A DNA stretch of 64,000 nt from Acidobacteriota bacterium. Its GTDB lineage: Bacteria; Acidobacteriota; Terriglobia; Terriglobales; Acidobacteriaceae. Made by a program: the position numbers and the translations under genes. The stretch lies in the NCBI GenBank assembly GCA_013289685.1, contig JABCZL010000014.1, positions 62,001 to 126,000 on the forward strand. Reading direction: 5' to 3'. Of this stretch, positions 13,177 through 56,857 are shown piece after piece; the first letter of the stretch is position 1; every line of letters starts with the position of its first letter. The notes beneath the pieces are model-generated. The model saw only the letters and a program-made list of their open reading frames with translations. It ran no database searches and was not told the origin of the DNA.

Positions 13177-14331
13177 TTATCCGACGTGGCGGTACAAGAC
13201 CTGCCCGATTGTCGAGATGACGCTCGATGGCAAATGGGACAGCAGGTACTTCGCGGTTCTGGCCTTCCATTTTCCGGTCGTCAGATCAAAAAAGTGGGTC
13301 GAACTTTCCGAGGCGCCGTAGCGAGAATACGTCAAGAGCGACTGGGTAGCGCCCCAGCGATTCTTAAAGGTGATCAGGCCCTGTTGATCGGCGTCGGTGC
13401 GGCCAAAATCGAACTGCCGCAGTGCTGCTGCCGCGGCCTCCTGGATCGCCCGCCAGTAGAGCAAATGCATACCACCCAGATTGTTGAAGCGTGGATCCGA
13501 GCATCCGTATTTGTAAACCAGAGTGTCTTTATGACGAAGGGTGATCATCGCGGCGACAGGCTGCTCACCTTGGTAGGCAATACGGATCTTCAAGTCGCTT
13601 CCAAACAATCGCATCAGATTGACGAACCACTTCCGCGGTTGGGGAGGGACTCTGTGCCTTTCGCGAGTCTGTTTGAACATTCGATAAAACTGATCCAAGA
13701 ACTCTGGGGTCGCTCCTTCGCGATAGATCAAACCTTCCCGCTCCGCGCGGAGAATTTTTCGTTGCACTGAATTCTTGTGAAAGTTGCGAAACAGCCTATC
13801 TATGTCTTGAGACAGATCAAGTTGGTGAAAGGCATACGGCACCGGCGTTAGGTGAAGCGGGCTCTTGATGGCCACGGAGCGTAACGGGCGTATCTCGATG
13901 TAGCGCCACCGGTTTCTCCCAAACTCCTGCTCGAAGATTCGCGCCATGATCTCAGGCGTATCATTGGCCTCGACCAGGGGCTCGCAGTGGTCCGAGAACG
14001 GCAGCGAAACCAATCGCCGTCCCGTTAACCAGCTGTTGACCCGGCAAAAGACGATCGCGTTTTCGAGATCTTCGGTTGCAACCGACGTCGTGTAGGCGAC
14101 AGGGTCGTAACCATACGTCTGAGATAGAGCCTCCAGCCAAGCGGAAGAATGAAACACCGATGCGCGCGGATGTCTCTGCACGAAACCATTCCAACGAGCG
14201 TCTGTCAGCGGTCGAAAACAATAGACTGCTTCGCCTGAGCCCCTGGATGCAACTGCTTCCTCCGATGGCCAGGTTCCAGCATGGGGACTGGACACGTTGG
14301 TCTCAACGGCTACTGCTAAACTCACTCTCAT
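13177..14331 (-). CDS. FemAB-like protein of exosortase-type EPS loci
   Basis: A 384-residue protein. The segment DIDRLFRNFHKNSVQRKILR is the basic helix found in FemAB-related proteins, and the C-terminal QFDFGRTDADQQGLITFKNRWG is characteristic of the PEP-CTERM-associated FemAB family. FemAB proteins proper transfer amino acids from aminoacyl-tRNA to peptidoglycan; the EPS-associated subfamily has no proven substrate. The ATG at 14331 is preceded by CGAGGAGA, a strong but close ribosome binding site. It overlaps the 3' end of the DUF354 gene by 29 bp, indicating coupling. Together with the gene at 3197-4456 the locus has two such proteins. Confidence 0.82.
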   Translation of the reverse strand: MRVSLAVAVETNVSSPHAGTWPSEEAVASRGSGEAVYCFRPLTDARWNGFVQRHPRASVFHSSAWLEALSQTYGYDPVAYTTSVATEDLENAIVFCRVNSWLTGRRLVSLPFSDHCEPLVEANDTPEIMARIFEQEFGRNRWRYIEIRPLRSVAIKSPLHLTPVPYAFHQLDLSQDIDRLFRNFHKNSVQRKILRAEREGLIYREGATPEFLDQFYRMFKQTRERHRVPPQPRKWFVNLMRLFGSDLKIRIAYQGEQPVAAMITLRHKDTLVYKYGCSDPRFNNLGGMHLLYWRAIQEAAAAALRQFDFGRTDADQQGLITFKNRWGATQSLLTYSRYGASESSTHFFDLTTGKWKARTAKYLLSHLPSSVISTIGQVLYRHVG

Positions 14332-15523
14332 TCTCCTCGATTGATTGGCTCTGGCCACGCTGCTGATTGTAACGATGAGTGGGTCGTACTGAAACTTGTA
14401 AATTTGAACCGACTCGGGGATCCCGGGCCGCAAGCACTGAAAGAATGCTGTTCACTATAAATGCCAAGGCTGGGCGGCCTCCGGTATGGGGATGTGAGGG
14501 CCGATTCCATCGAGTGACCCTGATCTTCGTTGACACTTCCTGCGGGCTTTCGATCAAAGTCATCCTTCCCTGTTCGACCAGATAACGATCGACGGCTCCA
14601 ATCTTGCCTCGGAAGATGCTGTAGACGGGCACCCCAAGTGCCGCAGCTTCCCGATTCATCGTGCCCCCACCACTCACGACGAGATCGGAGAACCAAATCA
14701 AGTTCAGCCCGTCCACCGGGGAACTCGGTATCACCATGCGGCCATCAGCAATCAGATCGCGCCACTCGCTTTGCAGCTGTTTTCCTTGTCTCGCGTTGCG
14801 TGGCAACGTAATCATGCGCACATTGGAGATGGCTCCCAGGTAGCGCATCGTTTCCGCAAACAGAACTTCGCTTTCAGGACTGTGGTAGTGAGCTTCCGTA
14901 GCCGGCGGGCGCACGACCACGAGTAAGTCACTCTCAGAGATTCCCAACTGCTTACGAATCGAGGCGTCCGGTTGGAATCGTGGCACGTAGACGTCTTCCT
15001 TCAACCCGGGATACCTCAAGACCCGCGACCGCCCCTTGCTCATGGCTCCTTCGGGGATCACATCTGGCATGAGAAGCCAGTCGGACTCGATGAAACCCGT
15101 TTTGGTTGAATGCTCATAGTCGTGCAACATCATGGTCGGAATACGAAACACCTTCGAGATGAGCAGCTGGGCACGGGCGCCATGGGAAATTGCGAGATCC
15201 ACACGTGACCAGGCGGCGGTCGGGGCAAGCTGCGCGGTTCTCAGGCAGTTGCACACGACCTTCAGAATCTTGTTCTTTCCATAGTGACTCCCGATGACTT
15301 TGCAGGGCAGATGAAAGAATTCAATCAACTCCCGCGTTTGATACATGTCGCGGGCCGTCAGAACCACTTCGATACCATTTCTTTTCAATTCGTCGATGAT
15401 CGGGATGAAAAAAGGCACATGCGGCGAATTGTCAAGATCAATCCACACTCGCTTGCCCGAGGGGACGGAGAGGCCGGGCATCTGAACGCGATCCGCTGCA
15501 AGTTCTTCACGTTGCTTATTCAT
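14303..15523 (-). CDS. DUF354 family, glycosyltransferase-like GT-B protein
   Basis: A 406-residue protein. The N-terminus KRVWIDLDNSPHVPFFIPII is the signature of DUF354, a family with a GT-B-like fold related to UDP-GlcNAc 2-epimerases and glycosyltransferases. The central AISHGARAQLLISKVFRIPT and the C-terminal SDLVVSGGGTMNREAAALGV segment correspond to the nucleotide-sugar binding half. The family is frequent in archaeal and bacterial surface-polysaccharide loci, but its reaction is not established. The start is the ATG at 15523. The gene is followed by a FemAB-like gene overlapping its end and lies 40 bp after the large fusion gene. The last 30 or so residues are polar and low in complexity. 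Confidence 0.8.
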   Translation of the reverse strand: MNKQREELAADRVQMPGLSVPSGKRVWIDLDNSPHVPFFIPIIDELKRNGIEVVLTARDMYQTRELIEFFHLPCKVIGSHYGKNKILKVVCNCLRTAQLAPTAAWSRVDLAISHGARAQLLISKVFRIPTMMLHDYEHSTKTGFIESDWLLMPDVIPEGAMSKGRSRVLRYPGLKEDVYVPRFQPDASIRKQLGISESDLLVVVRPPATEAHYHSPESEVLFAETMRYLGAISNVRMITLPRNARQGKQLQSEWRDLIADGRMVIPSSPVDGLNLIWFSDLVVSGGGTMNREAAALGVPVYSIFRGKIGAVDRYLVEQGRMTLIESPQEVSTKIRVTRWNRPSHPHTGGRPALAFIVNSILSVLAARDPRVGSNLQVSVRPTHRYNQQRGQSQSIEENESEFSSSR

Positions 15524-15563: not shown

Positions 15564-18194
15564 CTAAAACGCATCCCCGCCGCGGATCACGGCGAATGGA
15601 GTTCTGACCATAATCTTGAAATCCAGCCACAGTGACCACGTGCGCACGTATTGCAAATCCAGTCGCACCATTTCGTCGAAACGCAGGCGACTCCGTCCCG
15701 TCACCTGCCACAATCCGGTGATTCCTGGTTTGACTTCCAGAACACGGCGCCGGTGCCAGATATCGTATTCCTGGCATTCGTAAGCCAGGGGCGGCCGCGG
15801 TCCAACCAGCGACATATCGCCTTTCAGCACACTGAAGAATTGTGGGAGTTCGTCAAGACTAGTTTTGCGGATGAATCGACCAACGCGGGTGATCCTGGGA
15901 TCGTCGGTCATCTTGCTTCCCTCTCCGTCGTGGTTCCCACTGATCACACGTTTCATGAACTCCTGATGAATCTTGGGATCATTATTCGCATACATCGACC
16001 GGAATTTAAGGAAGGTGAAAGGCTTTCCAAACTGTCCGATCCGCTCCTGTTGGAAAAGGACGGGCCCCTTCGAACTCAGCTTGACCAAGGCGAAGACCAG
16101 CAAGAACAGAGGAGACAGGAACGCGACTGCCGCTACGCTGCCTAGGATGTCGATCAAGCGCTTTAGAGCTAGGACGCCACGCTGCTTGTTTTCGCGATGC
16201 TCCAGATCGGGATAGAGAGGACTGCCTACCGACATGTCCTGGTTCCAACTCTCCGGAAACACATGCAGTGAGATATGAATCTGGCTCGCATTCTCGAGAC
16301 TGAGGCTGTACCGAAGAGTCTCGCCGATCCGATGCATCATGGTGGCCATGATCGCCCCCGAATCGTGGATGCCGGTTTCTGTAAACATCACTCCGACGAC
16401 GGATTGATTCTTGTACCACCCGGTGACGTCGGTATCGCGACTTGCGTCCGACAACGCTGCCAGGGCCTTATTCAGGACCTTGCCGCTTCCGTCGCCAGAC
16501 TCAGGGTCGCCCACCCTCAGGAGCATCAGCAAAACCGGCTTGCGCGAGCGTTCGGTCCGCTTTCTCTCGTACGAGATCATGCTCCGGAAGGTTTCTTCGT
16601 CGAGTATCTTCGCTGCGTCAGCGGATTCCGGCCTTGCACTGGAAGACGCACCGGATGGAAGCTCCACTTCTGTACTTCGTTCGAATTCGCGATGAGTCGT
16701 GGCCAGGGCGAAATCCAGATCTTTTCTTGCGACAACAAACGAAACGTTGCACCCGGAAGAGCCCTGACCGTGAACCAGAGTGTGGACACCGTTTTGGCCT
16801 AGTTCATCGAGTACGCGTCCGACAATATCCTTTACCGCCCGCTCGTTCTCTCCTACCACGGTAAGAATGGCCACTGAGGAGTCCACACTCACCTGATCGA
16901 AGCCATCTGGCGTGACTTCCGCCAGGAATTCACGGCGGACTGCATCTACGGTCTTCTGGGCCGACGCGGCGCCGACCACCAGGAGGATTTGGTCATGGCT
17001 GGACGATTTTGCAACCAACAGGAGGTCGGTTCGAATCGCCCGCAGTGCGACCAGCATCCGCGGAATGGCATCTTGCGCAACGGTTGTAATGGCTCCGCCA
17101 ACCTTGATCAGAACTACGTCACTGATCGCGGCAACTGCTTTCACGCCTCCTCGGTTCGCGTTTCCAATGGCCGTGACCTTCGTTCCTCTTCTTGCCGGCG
17201 CGAACGTGTTGCGGATCCAAACCGGAATGCCATCTTCCATGACCGGGCGCAACGTTTTTGGGTGCAGTACCTTCGCACCAAAATGAGCAAGTTCGCTCGC
17301 TTCCCTGTAGGAAATTTCAGGAATGGTGACAGCGCCCGGGAAGAGACGTGGATCCGCAGTCAGGATGCCATCGACGTCCGTCCAGATGATGACTTCGCTG
17401 GCTTTGAGAGCTGCACCGACGATGGTTGCCGAATAATCGGAGCCGCCGCGCCCTAGAGTTGTCAGCGCACCGGCCTCATCGGCCCCAATGAAGCCGGTCA
17501 CGATCGGGATGATCCCTTTACGGATTAGAGGACGCAACCGGCGTTCGCAGCGCTCCGCGGTCAAATCCATCTTCGGATCCGCAGAGCCGAAGGAGGAATC
17601 AGTCACAATCAAGTCCGTGGCTTCCAGAGGTTCGCAGCTCAGTCCATGCGATGCGAGAGCGGCTGCCACCAGTGGCACGGACAGGCGCTCGCCCAGACTG
17701 GAGATCGAATCGCGCATACGCGGCGTCAGTTCGCCCAGCGCAGCTGTGCTGTCGCACCAGCGTCCGCACTCTTCGAGAAGATCACTGATCTTGCGCTGAA
17801 CCCGATCCTGCTCTGCCTCGCAAGAGATCGACGTTCGAATCGCAGTCTCATGTTTCTGGCGTATTTCTTCAAGAATTTCCGCAGCTCGCCCGCGATTCTT
17901 GGCTTCGGCGTGGTTGGCCGCTTCAAGCAGCTTGTTCGTTATGCCACTCATCGCCGATACCACAACCACCAATTCGCCGTCTCTGGCGTTGTTTTTTATA
18001 ATCTCGACCACTTGCTGGATGCAGGACGCGTCACCCACGGAAGTGCCGCCGAATTTCAGGACCCGCAGCGGCCGGGGCGCGTCGCGATGCGCTCGAGTAT
18101 GCGCGGACCGGTGCGGAGCCGGGTGCTCAGGAAAAACTCGCACCGATCGATTGGCTTGAAAAATAACTCGTTCGCTACTCATGTCGAGACTCAT
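15564..18194 (-). CDS. Aspartate kinase / degenerate GGDEF / sugar-transferase fusion
   Basis: One uninterrupted 876-residue frame holds three modules. Residues 44-505 are a full aspartate kinase: KFGGTS at 47-52, [13 protein letters not shown] at 248-260, [13 protein letters not shown] at 271-283, [12 protein letters not shown] at 304-315, then two ACT-like segments (about 361-420 and 438-500). Residues 528-650 are a degenerate GGDEF-like domain, where [17 protein letters not shown] replaces the GGDEF loop. Residues 672-876 are a bacterial sugar transferase that starts the lipid-linked repeat unit: membrane segment about 684-704, FLKFRSM at 728-734, DELPQ at 781-785, VGPRPP at 797-802, KPGITGLWQ at 822-830. 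The ATG at 18194 has GGAG five bases upstream and overlaps the ATP-grasp gene. Priming activity looks intact. The kinase may be catalytic or may serve as an amino-acid sensor; both are inference. Confidence 0.88.
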
Positions 18195-19452
18195 TCAGCT
18201 CCGGTTTGATCAAGCCGGGCAGACTTGCCGTGCGTTTATCGGTAGTTGCCTGCTCCATGTTCCGTCGCATCTTCCGGGAGTTCTGTTTCAGGGCTTTTTG
18301 AATGCAGGCTCGAACTAATTCCGGCTCTTCCCAAGGAACATCGTGATGTCCCGATTGAATAAAGGGGCTCGCTGGATCCCGCATCCATTCTTGCGGGAAA
18401 AGCGTGATCGTGTTGCCCTCCATCACCTTCGGAGCGGCTCGGAGCGGCTCCCCGGAGATGGCGGAGTATAAAGCGGCAGGGAGATCGTGTCCGACCCCGA
18501 GCGCCAGGTGTCCGACCTGAGTCGCACGCGGGTTAATCTCGATCAGATGCGCGTTTCCCGTGTGCATCTCCAGCATGAAATCAAACCCATGAATTCCTGA
18601 AAGGCCGAGCCGACGGACCATCTTTTCCGCCGTTGCCGACATCTCGGAGTTTTCGATCAAACGCAGAACACTGGACGGCCCTTCTGAACTCCGCTTGTTG
18701 ACCACCTCGAAGTGAAGGCTGGCGAGTACGGACCCCTTCCAGCAAGCGACCGTGCTGGTAGCTTCGCGCCCTGCAACAAACACTTGGCCATTCACGACAG
18801 ATCGATGGCGAAGCAGCGCAGGCCAGACCAAACTCTTGTCTTGGTCGATCAGAGCACGCTTGCCGGCTTTCGCAAGGAGCGGAGGAGCTTGGAGGTCCCG
18901 AAAGGCGCCTTCAGCCTCTTCAAGCGTATGCGCAACCCGGACACCCTCGCCGCCAGAGGTCCCATTCGACTTCAGAACTGTTGGAAGCCCCACCTGATCG
19001 ACCCATTCTCTGAGGTCGTTGATGTTCGTGATCACCTCAGTTCTCGGAGCACGGACACCCTCTTCTCGGGCTAGGTCCATAAAAGCGGTTCTCGCATAGA
19101 CCACCGGAAAGCTCGCCGCAGCACCCAGCGATCGCTCGATCAGATCGCAAACCCGGTCTCCGGCTTCCCCGCGTCTGTGTTCCTGCCCGTAGAGGTGATG
19201 CAGGTGACGAGTGGCCAGGTCATCCCCTGGCACGATGAAATCTGGCCTCTCTGCCGCGATCGCATCCGCGAACGATCTCAACGGCATCAGGCCTCGGTAG
19301 GCGTGGGTGCGGCGCACACCGCTCATTCGGCCCAGCGGATGTCCCGAAGGACACACCGCGTCCACGCAGCACCCTGCACCGGCCAATGCCATGGCCAGCC
19401 GGGCAGTCGGAAACCACCGAGACGTTGTGGCGATCAGGACAATTGGTTTCAC
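18175..19452 (-). CDS. ATP-grasp domain protein (carboxylate-amine ligase type)
   Basis: A 425-residue protein with an N-terminal Rossmann-like half and an ATP-grasp half. LPTVLKSNGTSGGEGVRVA (residues 156-174) has the ATP-binding Lys161 and the glycine-rich loop. HGFDFMLEMHTGNAHLIEINPRATQ (288-312) carries the metal-binding acid residues and the Asn-Pro-Arg signature. Such enzymes join a carboxylate to an amine through an acyl phosphate. The start is a GTG at 19452 with GGAGG eleven bases upstream. The end overlaps the start of the aspartate-kinase fusion by 20 bp, so the two are likely made together. That pairing suggests an amino-acid or acyl decoration of the EPS, but the substrate is not visible in the sequence. 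Confidence 0.85.
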   Translation of the reverse strand: MKPIVLIATTSRWFPTARLAMALAGAGCCVDAVCPSGHPLGRMSGVRRTHAYRGLMPLRSFADAIAAERPDFIVPGDDLATRHLHHLYGQEHRRGEAGDRVCDLIERSLGAAASFPVVYARTAFMDLAREEGVRAPRTEVITNINDLREWVDQVGLPTVLKSNGTSGGEGVRVAHTLEEAEGAFRDLQAPPLLAKAGKRALIDQDKSLVWPALLRHRSVVNGQVFVAGREATSTVACWKGSVLASLHFEVVNKRSSEGPSSVLRLIENSEMSATAEKMVRRLGLSGIHGFDFMLEMHTGNAHLIEINPRATQVGHLALGVGHDLPAALYSAISGEPLRAAPKVMEGNTITLFPQEWMRDPASPFIQSGHHDVPWEEPELVRACIQKALKQNSRKMRRNMEQATTDKRTASLPGLIKPELNESRHE

Positions 19453-19454
19453 TG

Positions 19455-20015
19455 CTAGCCGAGCCTCCTGGCGTCTTCACCCGCTGCGAGGTTCGAATAC
19501 AGGGGGGAGGCACTGGAACCGGCCATGATAGGTTCGATGACTCGTTCTTCCGGAAAGATATGGAAGGAAAGACCTACTTCACTGAATTGCTGCGGCGTCA
19601 GATGGCGTCGCAGCGCATCGCTCACGCGTGCCTTAATGGTGATCAGGATCGAACCTCGATCCTCAATCGCGATCTCGGTGAACATCACACCCACCACGGA
19701 ATTGTTCTGGTACCACCCAGTCACATCTGTTTCCCTGGTGGTCGCTGCAAGAGCAGACAAGATCTTGCTGAGAGCCTTTCTCGTCTTCTCAGAAGGCATT
19801 TGGTCCTCGATTTCGAGTAGGGTGAGGAGAACAGGTTTCCGCGATCGCTCAGCCCTTTTGCTCTCGATCGTCATCATCCGACGAAAGGCTTCCTCATGCA
19901 GGATGCTGCGATCTGCAACCGAATGGATCTTTACCCCGAAGTTCGAACTGTTGTTGCGACGTCCGTCCACGATACCTCCACTGAGTTCCGCGCCCATGCA
20001 CTGACGCGGAAACAC
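19455..20015 (-). CDS. Stand-alone degenerate GGDEF-like protein
   Basis: A 186-residue protein from a GTG at 20015; an ATG at 19997 is an alternative and neither has a good ribosome binding site. From about residue 34 it aligns along its length with the middle module of the fusion protein at 15564-18194: EEAFRRMMTIESKRAERSRK and [19 protein letters not shown] have near-identical counterparts there. The GGDEF loop is replaced, so it cannot be a diguanylate cyclase. It may bind a nucleotide or dimerise with the sugar transferase through the shared domain. It lies between the CapB-like kinase (56 bp away) and the ATP-grasp gene (2 bp away). It is soluble, with no signal peptide or membrane segment. 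Confidence 0.75.
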   Translation of the reverse strand: MFPRQCMGAELSGGIVDGRRNNSSNFGVKIHSVADRSILHEEAFRRMMTIESKRAERSRKPVLLTLLEIEDQMPSEKTRKALSKILSALAATTRETDVTGWYQNNSVVGVMFTEIAIEDRGSILITIKARVSDALRRHLTPQQFSEVGLSFHIFPEERVIEPIMAGSSASPLYSNLAAGEDARRLG

Positions 20016-20071: not shown

Positions 20072-21043
20072 CTACTTGCTCGAGTCGCGAGACTCACCAC
20101 GCGATGCGGGGGGACCGTATCGCTGATAGTAATCGCTGTGTGCTGCATTCGGGGAACTGTTTACCAGGGCACCAAGGAGTTTCGACTTCTCCAGTGCCTC
20201 CAACCCTTTCAGCAACTGTTGCTTCTCGGTGATGCCCGGTCGAGTCACCATCAAAATTCCGTCTGCTTGCCGGGCCCAGATGCTGGTGTCACCCAGCGGC
20301 AGGACCGGGGGAGAATCGATAACGATCCAGTCGAACCACGCCGACAGTTGCTCCATCAGCGCGGGCAACTTTCCGGATTGCATCAACTCCAGGGGATTCT
20401 CCGGAGCATTCCCCGCTGGCATAACCCAAAGGCCCAGGCTCTCCAGACGGTAAATGTTCATCGCCGTGCTTTCGCCGCGGAACCATTCACTGAGACCCGC
20501 GACTCGACCCAATCCAAATCGCCCGGCAAGGGTTGGCCGACGCAGGTCACCCTCCAGAAGCAACGTCTTTTGCGGCTTTCGGCGGGCCAGGGTACAAGCC
20601 AGATTGGCCGCGACCGTACTTTTGCCTTCCTGGGGAATCGTGCTCGTAATCAGGACTTTCTTTAATGGCTTGCTTTGCCGCAACTGCCTTAAACGCACTG
20701 CCAAGAAACGGAATTTCTCCGCCCCCAGGCTCTCCTCTTTGTCGATCGACACCAACCGGCTGTCGGTCGGTACGGCAACCGAGAGGCGCGGGCAATGCTC
20801 GAGGTCAACCGGGAACAAAGGCTTCTGGTCGGCGCCGGAATGATCGGAGATGGAATGATCGGAGGCGGGACGATCGGATATGACACGGTCCACTTCATTC
20901 GCCACCGCTGGTGCAGGCGTGCTCGCCGTTCGGATCTTCTCTTCCGCAGCCTGCAGTAATTCCGTCGCGAGAGAAAACGACGAGACTTCGGTCCCGGTGC
21001 GTTCCGATTCCGATCTTTGTAAAGCGTCAAATATATGGCTCAT
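20072..21043 (-). CDS. CapB/EpsG-like bacterial tyrosine kinase, exosortase-type
   Basis: A 323-residue P-loop protein. The start MSHIFDALQRSE is typical of kinases in exosortase-type EPS loci. Walker A lies at residues 134-142 (STIPQEGKS), Walker A' at 161-170 (LLLEGDLRRP, with Glu where Asp is usual), and Walker B at 239-244 (WIVIDS). A small tyrosine cluster near the end, Y305, Y306 and Y309, could be autophosphorylated. It should act with the Wzz-like protein at 22023-23633 to control chain length and export. Residues 51-72 come from a short imperfect DNA repeat (about 20837-20883), giving SDRPASDHSISDHSGAD. It overlaps the ATPase gene by 17 bp. Confidence 0.88.
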   Translation of the reverse strand: MSHIFDALQRSESERTGTEVSSFSLATELLQAAEEKIRTASTPAPAVANEVDRVISDRPASDHSISDHSGADQKPLFPVDLEHCPRLSVAVPTDSRLVSIDKEESLGAEKFRFLAVRLRQLRQSKPLKKVLITSTIPQEGKSTVAANLACTLARRKPQKTLLLEGDLRRPTLAGRFGLGRVAGLSEWFRGESTAMNIYRLESLGLWVMPAGNAPENPLELMQSGKLPALMEQLSAWFDWIVIDSPPVLPLGDTSIWARQADGILMVTRPGITEKQQLLKGLEALEKSKLLGALVNSSPNAAHSDYYQRYGPPASRGESRDSSK

Positions 21044-52744: not shown

Positions 52745-55700
52745 ATGTCCAAACAGTATCCTTTTCTTCGGGCATCTCGTTGCGCAGCCATCGCACTGGT
52801 CTTTGCCTCTGCACTTGAGGGACTGAGGCACACTCCCGTTCCTGGTCTTTCCGCTTGGCCGTGGCATGTTGCGGCAATCTTGGCTTACGCCGCTCTTGTT
52901 TTCCTTCTAGCCTCAGCAGGATTCCCCCGCGAACGAAGTACGCCGGCGCAACGCTGTGAAACAGACCATCAAGTGCGTGACATAAATGGGCGAGCGCAAG
53001 ACGCGATGGCAGAAAGCGAAAGGCGTTATCGCTCGCTGTTTGAAAACATGTTGGAGGGGTTCGCATACTGCAAGATGCTTCTTGACGACCGTGGCCGTTC
53101 CATGGATTTTGTCTATCTCGATGTCAACAGTGCATTTGGAGAGTTGACCGGCCTGAGGAATGTGGTTGGCAAGAGATTTACCGAGGTTGTCCCGGGGGGA
53201 AAGGACTCGCAGGCAGAATTGTTCGAAAGATACGGCCGAGTGGCACTCACGGGTGAGCCAGAACGATTCGAGATCGAAATTAAAGCCCTAGGAATGTGGT
53301 TCTCGATCTCAGCTTATGGTGCGGGAGAGCGATGCTTTGTTGCAGTTTTTGACAACATCACCGAACGCAAGCAGACTGAGCAAGCGCTTCGGCAGGCGGA
53401 GGAAAAGTACCGTGCTATCTTCCAAGATGCTGTCGTCGGCATCTTTCAGAGCACGCCCGATGGGCGGTATATCAACGCGAATCCAGCGATGGCCCACATG
53501 CTGGGCTATGACTCTCCTCAAGAACTAGTGGCAAGCATCACCGACATTTCCCGACAAGTCTATGTCGATCCCACGAGTCGAGAAGAATTAGCACGGCTGC
53601 TGAGAGAGCAGGGACAGGTCAAGAACTTTGAATGCGCGGTCTACCGCAAAGACGGCAGCAAGATGTGGTTCTCGGCGAATGTGCGAGCCGTTTCCGAAGA
53701 TGGCGTTCTGGTGGGATATGAGGGAACGAACGAGGACATCACGACTCGCAAAATCGCCGAGGAACAGGTTCAATTCTTAGCCTACTATGATGCCCTGACG
53801 GGCCTTCCCAATCGGACTCTTCTTCAAGATCGCTTGGGTAAGGCAATCGCTGGATCTCGTCGACAAAAGTGTAAGATCGCGCTTCTATTCCTCGATCTCG
53901 ACGGCTTCAAAATCATTAATGACTCGCTGGGGCACTCGGTCGGCGATCTCCTGCTGCAACAAGTTGCGGAACGACTTAAGAAGTGGGGGCGTGAGCAGGA
54001 CACCGTTGCCCGTTTAGGCGGCGACGAATTCCTGATAATGTTGACGCAGGTAAAGGAATTACCCGATGTAGCGGTTGCCGCTGAGCGGCTGATGGATGCT
54101 ATGACCGCTGAGTTCGACGTCCAAGGTCACTCCCTCAATGTTAGTTGCAGCATCGGTGCCAGTATCTTCCCTGAAAACGGTGCGGACTGCGAAACGCTGA
54201 TCAAGAATGCCGACGCAGCTATGTACGGTGCCAAGGATAGCGGACGTAACAGCTTCCGGTTCTTCGCCGAAGATATGAACGCTCAGGCGGGCGAGCGATT
54301 GAGCTTGGAGAACAGCCTGCGATTGGCACTCGGCAAAAAAGAACTCTTTCTCATGTACCAGCCCCAGATGCATGTGGTCACGGGGAGAGTCACCGGACTC
54401 GAGGCGCTCCTTCGTTGGCAGCATCCGGACCTGGGTCTAGTGCCACCCGACAAGTTCATACGAATTGCCGAGAACAGCGGACTGATCGTACCAATTGGCG
54501 AATGGGTGCTGCAGACGGCCTGCCGTCAGGCGAGAAAATGGCAGGATGAAGGCCTCCCCGCGGTTTCGGTAGCAGTCAACGTATCAGCGGTCCAGTTTCG
54601 CCAACAGGGCTTCTGCGAACTCATTAGAAGTGTGCTTCATGAGACTGGCCTGGCCGCGCAATGTCTTGAACTGGAACTGACGGAAAGCCTACTCCTAGCC
54701 AACGCGGATGTGACGCTCTCGGTCCTTCGGGAATTGAAGTCTATGGGGCTGACGCTGGCGATTGACGACTTTGGAACTGGTTACTCCAACTTCACGTCCT
54801 TGAGACAGTTTGGGGTTAGCAAGCTCAAGATCGACCGCTCGTTTATCAGCGACGTTGCCACGAATCCGGATGATTCTGCGATCACAGCCGCAATCATCAG
54901 CATGGCAAAAAGTCTGAGGCTCAAAGTGATTGCCGAAGGCGTCGAAAACGAAGCACAAATGTCATTTCTGCGGAAAAATCGGTGTGACGAGATTCAAGGC
55001 TATTATTTCAGCAAGCCCCTGGCGGTTGACAAAGTTGCTGGCAAGCTGCGAGGCAACGTCGCCGAAACGCAAGCCGTACCGCAGCCCGTGGGAGACAATC
55101 ATGACAACAAATCTAATGAGGTGAGTGTTTCACTTATGTCGATAGGACTTGCACTCTTGGTGTCCACCGATCCAGATACAGTTCAGCAATTCAGCCTCGC
55201 CCTGCAAGAGTTGTCTATCTCGCCGGACGCATGTCAGGACGCGGCAAGCGCAGGTCTCCTGCTGAAGCGCAGAAAATTCGATGCCGTCATCGTTGATCTC
55301 CAACTGGGAGAGCAGTCTGGACAGATTCTGGACGAGGTGCATCTTTCCGCATCGAACAGAACGGCGGTGAGCTTCGGCATCAGCAACAATGACGCTGAAG
55401 CTACCGCAGCTTTTCGAAAGAAGTCGCAGTTCGTCTTCGAGAGACCGATTTCTCCCCAATCAATCCACAAAACTCTCAAGCCTGCTTATGGACTCATCCT
55501 GAGAGAACGGCGGCGGTATTTTCGCTGCCCGGTCTCTATTCCAGTCATCATCCGGAGCAAAAGCATGCAGGAGGTTTGGTGCAACAGCGTAAATGTCAGC
55601 GGAGGAGGTATGGCTTTGAGCACACAGGTTCCGTTCCTTCCCGGAGAAAACGTCTGCGTTCAGTTCACTTTGCCGGATCACAAAGTACCCCTCTCAGCAG

Positions 55701-55861
55701 AATCGACGATCTGCTGGTCGAAAACAGGCAATATGGGAGTTCGCTTCGTATCCATTTCTGACGAACAGAAGTCGGTGCTACAGGTCTGGCTGTCAGAAAA
55801 GTTGGAAGAAACGCTTCCCGAAGGCGTTGCCGGACAATTCCGAAAGGCAGAACTCTGCTAA
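52745..55861 (+). CDS. PAS-PAS-GGDEF-EAL-REC-PilZ cyclic-di-GMP protein
   Basis: A 1038-residue protein. Two membrane helices lie at about 10-27 and 41-59. PAS domains are at about 90-208 and 215-337. The GGDEF domain is at 345-505: LDLDGFKIINDSLGH and an intact RLGGDEF at 423-429, with an RxxD inhibitory site at 416-419. The EAL domain is at 520-770: GLEALLRW at 551-558, ELELTES at 642-648, IDDFGTGYSN at 673-682, KIDRSF at 695-700, IAEGVE at 729-734. A degenerate receiver follows at 799-912 and a PilZ domain at 920-1025 (RRRYFR, NVSGGG). The last 240 residues are paralogous to the protein at 50347-51039. It could both make and break cyclic di-GMP and sense it itself. It abuts the next gene. 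Confidence 0.9.
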   Translation: MSKQYPFLRASRCAAIALVFASALEGLRHTPVPGLSAWPWHVAAILAYAALVFLLASAGFPRERSTPAQRCETDHQVRDINGRAQDAMAESERRYRSLFENMLEGFAYCKMLLDDRGRSMDFVYLDVNSAFGELTGLRNVVGKRFTEVVPGGKDSQAELFERYGRVALTGEPERFEIEIKALGMWFSISAYGAGERCFVAVFDNITERKQTEQALRQAEEKYRAIFQDAVVGIFQSTPDGRYINANPAMAHMLGYDSPQELVASITDISRQVYVDPTSREELARLLREQGQVKNFECAVYRKDGSKMWFSANVRAVSEDGVLVGYEGTNEDITTRKIAEEQVQFLAYYDALTGLPNRTLLQDRLGKAIAGSRRQKCKIALLFLDLDGFKIINDSLGHSVGDLLLQQVAERLKKWGREQDTVARLGGDEFLIMLTQVKELPDVAVAAERLMDAMTAEFDVQGHSLNVSCSIGASIFPENGADCETLIKNADAAMYGAKDSGRNSFRFFAEDMNAQAGERLSLENSLRLALGKKELFLMYQPQMHVVTGRVTGLEALLRWQHPDLGLVPPDKFIRIAENSGLIVPIGEWVLQTACRQARKWQDEGLPAVSVAVNVSAVQFRQQGFCELIRSVLHETGLAAQCLELELTESLLLANADVTLSVLRELKSMGLTLAIDDFGTGYSNFTSLRQFGVSKLKIDRSFISDVATNPDDSAITAAIISMAKSLRLKVIAEGVENEAQMSFLRKNRCDEIQGYYFSKPLAVDKVAGKLRGNVAETQAVPQPVGDNHDNKSNEVSVSLMSIGLALLVSTDPDTVQQFSLALQELSISPDACQDAASAGLLLKRRKFDAVIVDLQLGEQSGQILDEVHLSASNRTAVSFGISNNDAEATAAFRKKSQFVFERPISPQSIHKTLKPAYGLILRERRRYFRCPVSIPVIIRSKSMQEVWCNSVNVSGGGMALSTQVPFLPGENVCVQFTLPDHKVPLSAESTICWSKTGNMGVRFVSISDEQKSVLQVWLSEKLEETLPEGVAGQFRKAELC

Positions 55862-56857
55862 ATGACGGCCGTGAACGACAAGATCGAGACCATGAATCCT
55901 TCTTTCCAGCGCTTCACCGTTCTAGCGGTTGATGATTCGGCGATCTATCGCAAACTGGTCGAGCAGTCTCTCCTCGGGCAGCAGTACGAGGTGCTATTTG
56001 CGAAGAACGGTCGGGAAGCTCTAGACCTATTCGCAGAGCACCGGCCTGCTGTGGTTATTACGGATTGGAGCATGCCGGATATCAGTGGACTGGAACTATG
56101 CAGGCTTATTCGCCGCAACTTCCAAGGCTTCCACTCTCATCTCATCCTGCTTACAAGCAACAGCGATAAAGAGCAACTCGTGGAAGGGCTTGCTGCCGGG
56201 GCCGATGACTACCTCACGAAGCCGTTTCACTCCGGTGAGCTTGTGGCGCGTATCGCAGTGGGCCGCAGAATCGTTGATCTTCACCGCGAAATCCAAGCAA
56301 AGAATCGACTTTTGGAAGAGATGGCATTGACGGACGCCCTAACAGGTTTGCCAAACCGCCGTGCTGTTGATGTTTGGGCTTCACGTGAACTCAGTGCCGC
56401 CGCTAGGCACGACTTTGCCTTTTGGGTAGTGCTGGCTGACTTGGATTTGTTCAAAAAAGTCAACGATACCTACGGGCACGATGCGGGCGACACCGTGCTT
56501 AAGACCTTCGCGGAGATTCTCAAGACGCATACACGCCAGTCCGACATTTGTGCCCGTTTGGGAGGGGAAGAATTCCTCGTAATGATGACCCATTCCGACA
56601 GGTGCGGCACGAAAACCTCGGTCGAACGGATTCGCAAACAATTCGAAAACACAACGTTCACTTTTGGGAACAGCACCGTTTCGGAGACTGCGAGCTTCGG
56701 AATTGCCGGATTTCGAGGTACCAACCCTCCTGACTGGAACGCCCTCGTGGAATACGCCGATAACGCTCTTTACTCAGCCAAGCACAAGGGTCGCAACCGA
56801 ATAGAATTCGAGGGCTTGCCCGAGCACATTTCTCAAGACTTGATCGGGTCGGTTTAG
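55862..56857 (+). CDS. Receiver-GGDEF diguanylate cyclase (WspR/PleD type)
   Basis: A 331-residue protein. The receiver domain has the acidic pair D24-D25, phosphoacceptor D68 in VVITDWSMPDISG, and K120 in YLTKPF. A coiled linker (REIQAKNRLLEEMALTDALT) joins it to a GGDEF domain with LADLDLFKKVNDTYGH, GGEEF at 234-238 and an RxxD inhibitory site at 225-228. All features of an active, product-inhibited cyclase switched by phosphorylation are present. The ATG follows the stop of the preceding gene with no spacer, so the two are cotranscribed. No histidine kinase is in the window. Confidence 0.93.
   Translation: MTAVNDKIETMNPSFQRFTVLAVDDSAIYRKLVEQSLLGQQYEVLFAKNGREALDLFAEHRPAVVITDWSMPDISGLELCRLIRRNFQGFHSHLILLTSNSDKEQLVEGLAAGADDYLTKPFHSGELVARIAVGRRIVDLHREIQAKNRLLEEMALTDALTGLPNRRAVDVWASRELSAAARHDFAFWVVLADLDLFKKVNDTYGHDAGDTVLKTFAEILKTHTRQSDICARLGGEEFLVMMTHSDRCGTKTSVERIRKQFENTTFTFGNSTVSETASFGIAGFRGTNPPDWNALVEYADNALYSAKHKGRNRIEFEGLPEHISQDLIGSV

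Follow-up and report, generated by a model that had tools for sequence, protein, structure and literature searches.

What does an aspartate kinase do in the same polypeptide as the enzyme that starts an exopolysaccharide (EPS) chain? The question is raised by a 64,000-nt stretch of an Acidobacteriaceae genome (hereafter the window), in which one minus-strand frame of 876 codons, opening with ATG and free of internal stops, encodes in order an aspartate kinase (AK), its ACT region, a degenerate GGDEF domain and a phosphoglycosyl transferase (PGT). A preliminary description of this DNA had proposed the frame at 15564-18194, its strand not being given, and the chain of AK with ACT, GGDEF-like and sugar transferase modules; both are borne out, the latter by Pfam, NCBIfam, Foldseek and hhalign. 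As far as searched, the AK-PGT fusion is a new architecture, so far found in one lineage. In the open-licence PMC literature (titles and the starts of abstracts), no report was found of an AK-PGT fusion or of an AK serving EPS, and none in open-licence PMC literature of amino-acid metabolism and polysaccharide initiation in one chain.

The fused frame and its EPS cluster

Three domains of the fused protein pass their Pfam cut-offs, namely AA_kinase at residues 43-329 (199.7 bits, cut-off 24.9), ACT_9 at 444-504 (44.7 bits, cut-off 27) and Bac_transf at 678-870 (225.9 bits, cut-off 27), and the NCBIfam model asp_kinases (TIGR00657) is exceeded as well (367.5 vs 208.7). A frame of this length with three domains over threshold is not a product of chance, and the fusion is real in the assembly. 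Third-position G+C is similar in the kinase, ACT, GGDEF-like and PGT parts (0.60-0.72) and falls to 0.41, below its neighbours, in the linker between the ACT and GGDEF-like parts. The fused gene holds no good internal start for the PGT part: an in-frame GTG at residue 510 lacks a Shine-Dalgarno-like sequence, and an ATG at residue 539 lies within the first helix of the GGDEF-like domain, with a GGAG merely 2 nt upstream.

The AK module carries KFGGTSV (47), VSAMSG (79), SLGERLS (166), TLGRGGSD (246) and a further motif at 305, which, from solved AKs, we take to be catalytic or aspartate-binding here as well. The catalytic motifs are also kept, by alignment, in the EPS-type relatives defined below, the AK of genome G157 being partly missing because its frame is broken. 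The best PDB matches of the AK-ACT part are 3c1m and 2hmf, over residues 44-508 and 45-504 (best E 2.1e-100), presumably an archaeal aspartokinase. Like that enzyme, the fused protein aligns over 44-508 with catalytic motifs intact; unlike it, its ACT region is diverged, GGDEF-like and PGT modules are attached, and the gene lies in an EPS operon. No Pfam model picks out the first ACT region, which is visible by alignment to the solved aspartokinases over 44-508. Two further AK genes of the source genome are 35-36% identical to the EPS-associated one.

The C-terminal module combines the PF02397 profile, a DX12P motif (D682-x12-P695), SLDELPQ at 779, presumably with its usual role in such enzymes, and a PglC fold, all of which mark a monotopic PGT and are shared with PglC and WbaP; WbaP is the best solved relative, over 675-872. 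The DX12P motif is described for PGTs in passages of PMC7484181. Large PGTs of the WbaP/WcaJ kind, as outlined in parts of PMC10942596 and PMC7484181, differ in having an N-terminal membrane bundle and a CoA-binding-like domain; neither has a Pfam match in the fused protein, where the GGDEF-like domain stands in front instead. In agreement with this, TIGR03025 stays below its cut-off (286.8 vs 295.55) and matches over positions 254-444 of 445 only. The N-terminal domain of unknown function in WbaP is implicated in uridine nucleotide binding and regulation, according to a passage of PMC10942596. The PGT module is 7 residues shorter than in genomes G150, G151 and G096, between HDG and KMT (window 15909-15926, residues 757-762).

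The fused gene belongs to a minus-strand run (Table 1) that begins with a NusG-like gene, a sigma-54 regulator, a polysaccharide export protein, a putative outer-membrane barrel gene (recognised by eye, no Pfam match), Wzz and an XrtA-associated-type ATPase (below its cut-off), continues with a tyrosine kinase, a stand-alone GGDEF-like gene, an ATP-grasp gene, the fused gene, DUF354 and FemAB, and extends to a protein without matches, WecB, RmlC and others. The ATP-grasp gene and the fused gene overlap by 20 nt. In fold, the ATP-grasp protein matches biotin carboxylase, PurT, DdlB and RizA, and it keeps E-I-N-P-R, of which E, N, P and R are invariant in 13 rows. No asd or homoserine dehydrogenase was recognised by Pfam or NCBIfam among the annotated cluster genes, which counts against the function preferred below. 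An exosortase-family gene over cut-off lies on another contig of the source genome (G000:C2:24112-24825), although the XrtA-associated-like genes are in the EPS cluster.

Table 1. Features of the fused gene and its neighbours (window coordinates)
Feature	Position	Strand	Basis
Fused gene, 876 aa, AK - ACT - degenerate GGDEF - PGT	15564..18194	-	ORF + Pfam + NCBIfam
Aspartate kinase catalytic domain (residues 43-329)	17208..18068	-	Pfam AA_kinase, motif positions, alignment with relatives
ACT region (residues 350-504), strongly diverged from relatives	16683..17147	-	ACT_9 at 444-504; divergence measurement
Linker, 25 residues (505-529)	16608..16682	-	Comparison with relatives
GGDEF-fold domain without active loop (residues 530-672)	16179..16607	-	AlphaFold + Foldseek, hhalign
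RDTD (586-589), counterpart of c-di-GMP I-site RxxD	16428..16439	-	Alignment, 34 rows
KNQSV (595-599) at place of GG(D/E)EF, variable in family	16398..16412	-	hhalign, alignment
Monotopic phosphoglycosyl transferase (residues 678-870)	15585..16163	-	Pfam Bac_transf, PglC/WbaP fold, motifs
ATP-grasp protein, conserved neighbour of EPS-type AK	18175..19452	-	Pfam, fold, synteny
Stand-alone degenerate GGDEF copy, 186 aa, also R-x-T-D	19455..20015	-	Alignment
EPS tyrosine autokinase	20072..21043	-	TIGR01007 over cut-off
DUF354 protein, next gene downstream of fused gene	14303..15523	-	Pfam
FemAB/GNAT protein of EPS cluster	13177..14433	-	Pfam, NCBIfam

Separate genes and a shared neighbourhood in relatives

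AKs at least 50% identical to that of the window, here called EPS-type, occur in 12 of 45 genomes of the genus, the window's included, and in at least four further genomes (G045, G048, G071, G096) among 150 of the family. The genome sets searched for a second fusion overlap and include the source genome; none was found in the 45 genus genomes, among the matches listed for the 150 family genomes (up to six candidates scored per genome), in 396 phylum genomes (E 1e-110, up to two candidates scored per genome) or in 67 loci from a scan of genome contigs. A gene for GGDEF-like domain and PGT (GGDEF-PGT) directly follows the AK in 8 of the 16 genomes with an EPS-type AK and is fused to it solely in the window, the two genes being adjacent yet separate in the other seven. 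It lies upstream of the ATP-grasp-AK pair in four genomes (G155, G162, G048, G071) and is not adjacent or not seen in G165, G176, G180 and G045, some of whose contigs are short. Judged by these comparisons, the fusion is lineage-specific as far as seen and the gene pair is conserved; the preliminary description had set absence of the fusion from all related genomes as the test against its proposal, and within these searches that absence is what was found. Two candidates suggested by their open frames, G096 and G156, were discarded, the DNA having TAA and TAG, respectively, between the genes; so was G157, with its AK in two frames and neighbouring genes frame-shifted too. The GGDEF-PGT frame of G157 runs on into DUF354 (822 aa, L112 9021-11486), possibly by an assembly error.

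The join itself is shorter than its counterpart in relatives. Between the conserved protein ends, 75 nt are found in the window vs 210, 215, 305, 328, 331 and 336 nt in six relatives (G157, the seventh with adjacent genes, stands outside this measurement with its broken AK), so that the window is short of 135-261 nt and the linker replaces the AK 3' end, the intergenic stretch or overlap and the GGDEF-PGT 5' end of relatives. Because of this shortening, the fusion is to be read as a deletion and not just a lost stop codon. The two genes of the six relatives are separated by 12 to 153 nt, or overlap by 40 nt in one, and in two relatives they share a reading frame already, interrupted by a stop codon.

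The more widely conserved unit is the pair of ATP-grasp gene and AK. ATP-grasp stands directly upstream of the EPS-type AK in 15 of 16 genomes, window included, and in G180 the two are on different contigs. Within the genus, ATP-grasp is present in all 12 genomes with an EPS-type AK vs 7 of 33 without (in 2 of these 7 at 40-41% identity only), a co-occurrence with a Fisher p of 1.8e-6 if genomes are treated as independent, which they are not. The pair is not obligate: a large part of the cluster recurs in G160, where the ATP-grasp gene has no AK or GGDEF-PGT gene next to it, and in G174 the ATP-grasp gene lies among amino-sugar genes in the absence of an EPS-type AK. Many genomes also have GGDEF-PGT without an EPS-type AK, which speaks against the function preferred below. 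In G169 (L122 8730-10511) a stand-alone GGDEF-like gene is followed by GGDEF-PGT with no ATP-grasp or AK between, so ATP-grasp-AK may be a cassette inserted between GGDEF-like genes. The tie between EPS assembly and an aspartate kinase that the preliminary description had drawn from one gene holds as a gene neighbourhood beyond the source genome; one of the two routes it offered, lysine or threonine sensing through ACT domains, is not supported (see below). Neither the ATP-grasp partner nor the conserved I-site of the GGDEF-like domain had been mentioned there.

Other contexts hint at the chemistry of the pair. In G165 (L119 960-9969) ATP-grasp, AK, AsnB, a FAD oxidoreductase-like gene, MetY and MetA lie in this order on the same strand, with MetA, MetY and AsnB over an NCBIfam cut-off, a possible amino-acid tailoring operon; as MetY, MetA and AsnB stand beside ATP-grasp-AK, aspartate-family amino acids are indicated. 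An ATP-grasp gene of G178 has MetY- and MetA-like genes at a distance of about 5.5 kb. In G048 the pair is found among UDP-GlcNAc 3-dehydrogenase-like, hexapeptide acetyltransferase, PseC-type aminotransferase and WecB genes, WecB alone of the amino-sugar genes being over cut-off. Such contexts favour a role of ATP-grasp-AK in making or attaching an aspartate-family amino acid. A ligase role for the ATP-grasp enzyme is plausible because in Campylobacter, as stated in a passage of PMC11800379, ATP-grasp domains form amides on capsule sugars.

A candidate c-di-GMP receptor and a diverged ACT region

The middle domain of the fused protein has no Pfam match, and its assignment comes from structure and profile comparison. 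An AlphaFold model of the GGDEF-PGT part, built from 34 rows, reached a mean pLDDT of 77.0 and a pTM of 0.61; among the 50 Foldseek matches listed for it, PglC and WbaP fill the first four places and GGDEF-containing chains the rest, with 6khu (E 3.0e-5, TMt 0.66) and 4urg (4.8e-5) matching the GGDEF-like domain. Against a profile of 15 GGDEF domains from the same genome, hhalign gave 95.7% and E 8.5e-9 in a single one-to-one comparison, pairing a 15-residue stretch with the RxxD and GGEEF stretch and leaving a gap at the FKxxND stretch of GGDEF enzymes. The Pfam GGDEF model itself matches weakly, in three rows out of eight with a best E of 0.069, and gives no match to the stand-alone copy of the window. 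The lack of an active loop, noted in the preliminary description, is confirmed, KNQSV taking the place of the GG(D/E)EF that defines diguanylate cyclases. R586 and D589, by contrast with the varying loop 595-598, are invariant in 34 of 34 rows of the GGDEF-PGT alignment, and position 622 holds Arg in 30 of them and Lys in 3. This alignment omits L031 (PGT match split), L124 (two frames), L112 (broken frame) and L014 (same as L127), and likewise L108, L122, L131 and L132. In seven stand-alone copies taken with the fused domain, the Arg, the Asp and the second Arg are each present in 8 of 8.

The I-site of PleD lies nine and six residues before GGEEF (a passage of PMC2170427), the spacing also seen in the fused protein. 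Closer still is PelD, which requires R367, D370 and R402 according to a passage of PMC8461298: it shares with the fused protein a GGDEF fold without active loop and RxxD nine and six residues before the loop site, and its second Arg follows the first by 35 residues vs 36 here. PelD differs in being a separate protein with a GAF domain and membrane helices, while here the domain belongs to a PGT, and Pfam finds no GAF domain in the 876 residues. With the active loop and the FKxxND stretch missing and the I-site kept, the domain cannot be an ordinary cyclase and looks like a c-di-GMP receptor; by the same alignments, it probably binds c-di-GMP. The ligand is probably made in the source organism, since its genome has GGDEF proteins (23 match rows, some being two pieces of one protein; two proteins within the window). 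At 52745-56857 of the window, a GGDEF protein that by eye includes an EAL-like part adjoins a response regulator-GGDEF protein, and the GGDEF/GGEEF loops of both are intact.

The ACT region was compared with 38 reference AKs, ordinary AKs of other Acidobacteriota records in L042-L093 (44-55% identical; one, L072, is titled Betaproteobacteria). They are taken as ordinary because, in the sequenced flanks examined, sigma-54 regulators are the only relatives of the window's ATP-grasp or EPS proteins near them. Left out were L051, L056, L065, L069, L079 and L081 as EPS-type, the truncated L059, L083 and L087, the divergent L088 and L090-L093, and also L096. The fused AK is 60.7% identical to the references in its kinase part and 40.2% in its ACT part, a difference of +0.204, where the references themselves have a mean of -0.067 (sd 0.029, maximum +0.024, n=38). 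The AKs of G096 (54.7 and 34.6, +0.201) and G150 (63.7 and 50.6, +0.131) complete the three greatest differences among the 15 EPS-type AKs measured, L112 being set aside for its broken frame; the remaining 12 range from -0.092 to +0.103 (G165), and 9 of the 15 surpass the highest reference. By this measure, ACT divergence is common among EPS-type AKs, extends beyond the clade of the window, and is largest in the window, G096 and G150. A segment of the first ACT domain conserved in the reference AKs, GPGIVGVPDVVGR, is replaced in the fused protein by 13 other residues, unlike the second ACT domain, which does pass Pfam (ACT_9).

In a tree built from just the kinase domain, the window groups with G150 and G096 (support 98/92), G096 being on a long branch. 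The ACT change probably preceded the fusion, because G150 and G096 are not fused. The tree does not unite the 16 EPS-type rows: they require two changes, with one sufficing in 1% of bootstrap trees, so a single origin of EPS-type AKs is not established by it. The preliminary description had suggested that the ACT domains sense lysine or threonine. As this region has diverged far more than the kinase, such sensing is improbable, and freedom from feedback is the likelier reading; the decay probably means loss of control by the usual end products. It could also mean a changed effector, the region binding something else rather than nothing.

Possible functions of the fused protein

The fused frame, its domains and intact motifs, the gene order, the divergence of the ACT region and the conservation of the I-site can be read directly from the sequences; aspartate kinase activity, its product and use, c-di-GMP binding and any benefit of tethering are what we infer from them. 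In one lineage, a deletion would have merged two adjacent genes of one EPS operon. The AK module would be an extra, EPS-dedicated enzyme, separate from the genome's two other AKs, making beta-aspartyl phosphate for an aspartate-family building block and, with its decayed ACT region, probably free of the usual end-product feedback. The ATP-grasp enzyme encoded upstream would probably couple this building block to an EPS sugar or its precursor, and the PGT module would move a sugar phosphate to the polyprenyl carrier as the first step of EPS assembly. The GGDEF-like domain would probably bind c-di-GMP and, in a PelD-like way, act as an on/off switch for the PGT. By anchoring the AK to the membrane-bound priming enzyme, the fusion would bring precursor supply and chain start into one complex. 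We give about even chances to this proposal of a feedback-released, EPS-dedicated AK that supplies ATP-grasp attachment and is tethered to a c-di-GMP-gated PGT. AK modules within fusions are familiar from the bifunctional AKs of NCBIfam models (AK-homoserine dehydrogenase, AK-diaminopimelate decarboxylase); here, unlike there, the partner is an EPS enzyme and not one of amino-acid synthesis.

With a single fused genome known, no case for selection on the fusion can be made, and a neutral account competes with the proposal: a deletion joined co-transcribed genes that share an operon since both serve EPS, the modules work as before and the join has no function. The single occurrence fits this account, as do the short distances and in-frame pairs of the relatives and the retention of motifs in both AK and PGT modules. 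It fits less well with the loss of the PGT's own start region, by which AK and PGT are made 1:1, and a membrane enzyme would not obviously tolerate so large an N-terminal extension, though neither argument amounts to a test; we leave the neutral account a serious, if minority, chance. The restriction to one genome and the low third-position G+C of the linker could also be signs of an assembly or sequencing artefact. An error is, however, hardly likely to join orthologous neighbours, remove 135-261 nt and leave the frame open, and the uniform third-position G+C of the four module parts points the same way, so that an artefact is scarcely credible.

Other alternatives concern the AK's product and its control. 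Sugars with an aspart-4-yl decoration exist, and beta-aspartyl phosphate might itself donate the acyl group to an amino sugar, whether or not the ATP-grasp enzyme takes part, a reading suited to the amino-sugar genes around the G048 pair (with the cut-off limit noted above). Against it, ATP-grasp enzymes make their own acyl phosphate, no candidate aspartyl transferase was identified, and the MetA/MetY neighbours of G165 suit homoserine-derived products better, and we regard this reading as improbable. Among the open-licence PMC papers listed, none carried the term for such a decoration. Control of the PGT by lysine or threonine sensed in the ACT region could appeal to the one ACT domain over threshold, but the low conservation of ACT relative to kinase and the loss of the relatives' conserved segment make it very improbable.

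It is tempting to go further than the proposed supply and tethering and to see in one chain three controls over slime: a feedback-released AK supplying an aspartate-derived decoration, c-di-GMP gating through a dead GGDEF domain, and initiation by the PGT, with the PGTs of many Acidobacteriaceae being themselves c-di-GMP receptors. The odds are well against this whole, which we offer as speculation. Were it true, c-di-GMP would act directly, as a switch working after translation, on the step that opens EPS chain assembly. According to a 2025 paper (PMC12802240), it is incompletely understood how Wzx/Wzy pathways are controlled post-translationally, and c-di-GMP binding by the GGDEF-like domain would give a testable answer to how a PGT-started EPS pathway is switched post-translationally. 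What is conserved across the sequences compared is the ATP-grasp-AK pair and the combination of PGT and I-site-bearing domain, and the former predicts an unknown amino-acid decoration on acidobacterial EPS. In G178 (L123 8743-11411), with no ATP-grasp beside it on the contig, a 44% identical AK is followed by an aspartate-semialdehyde dehydrogenase-like gene, recognised by eye.
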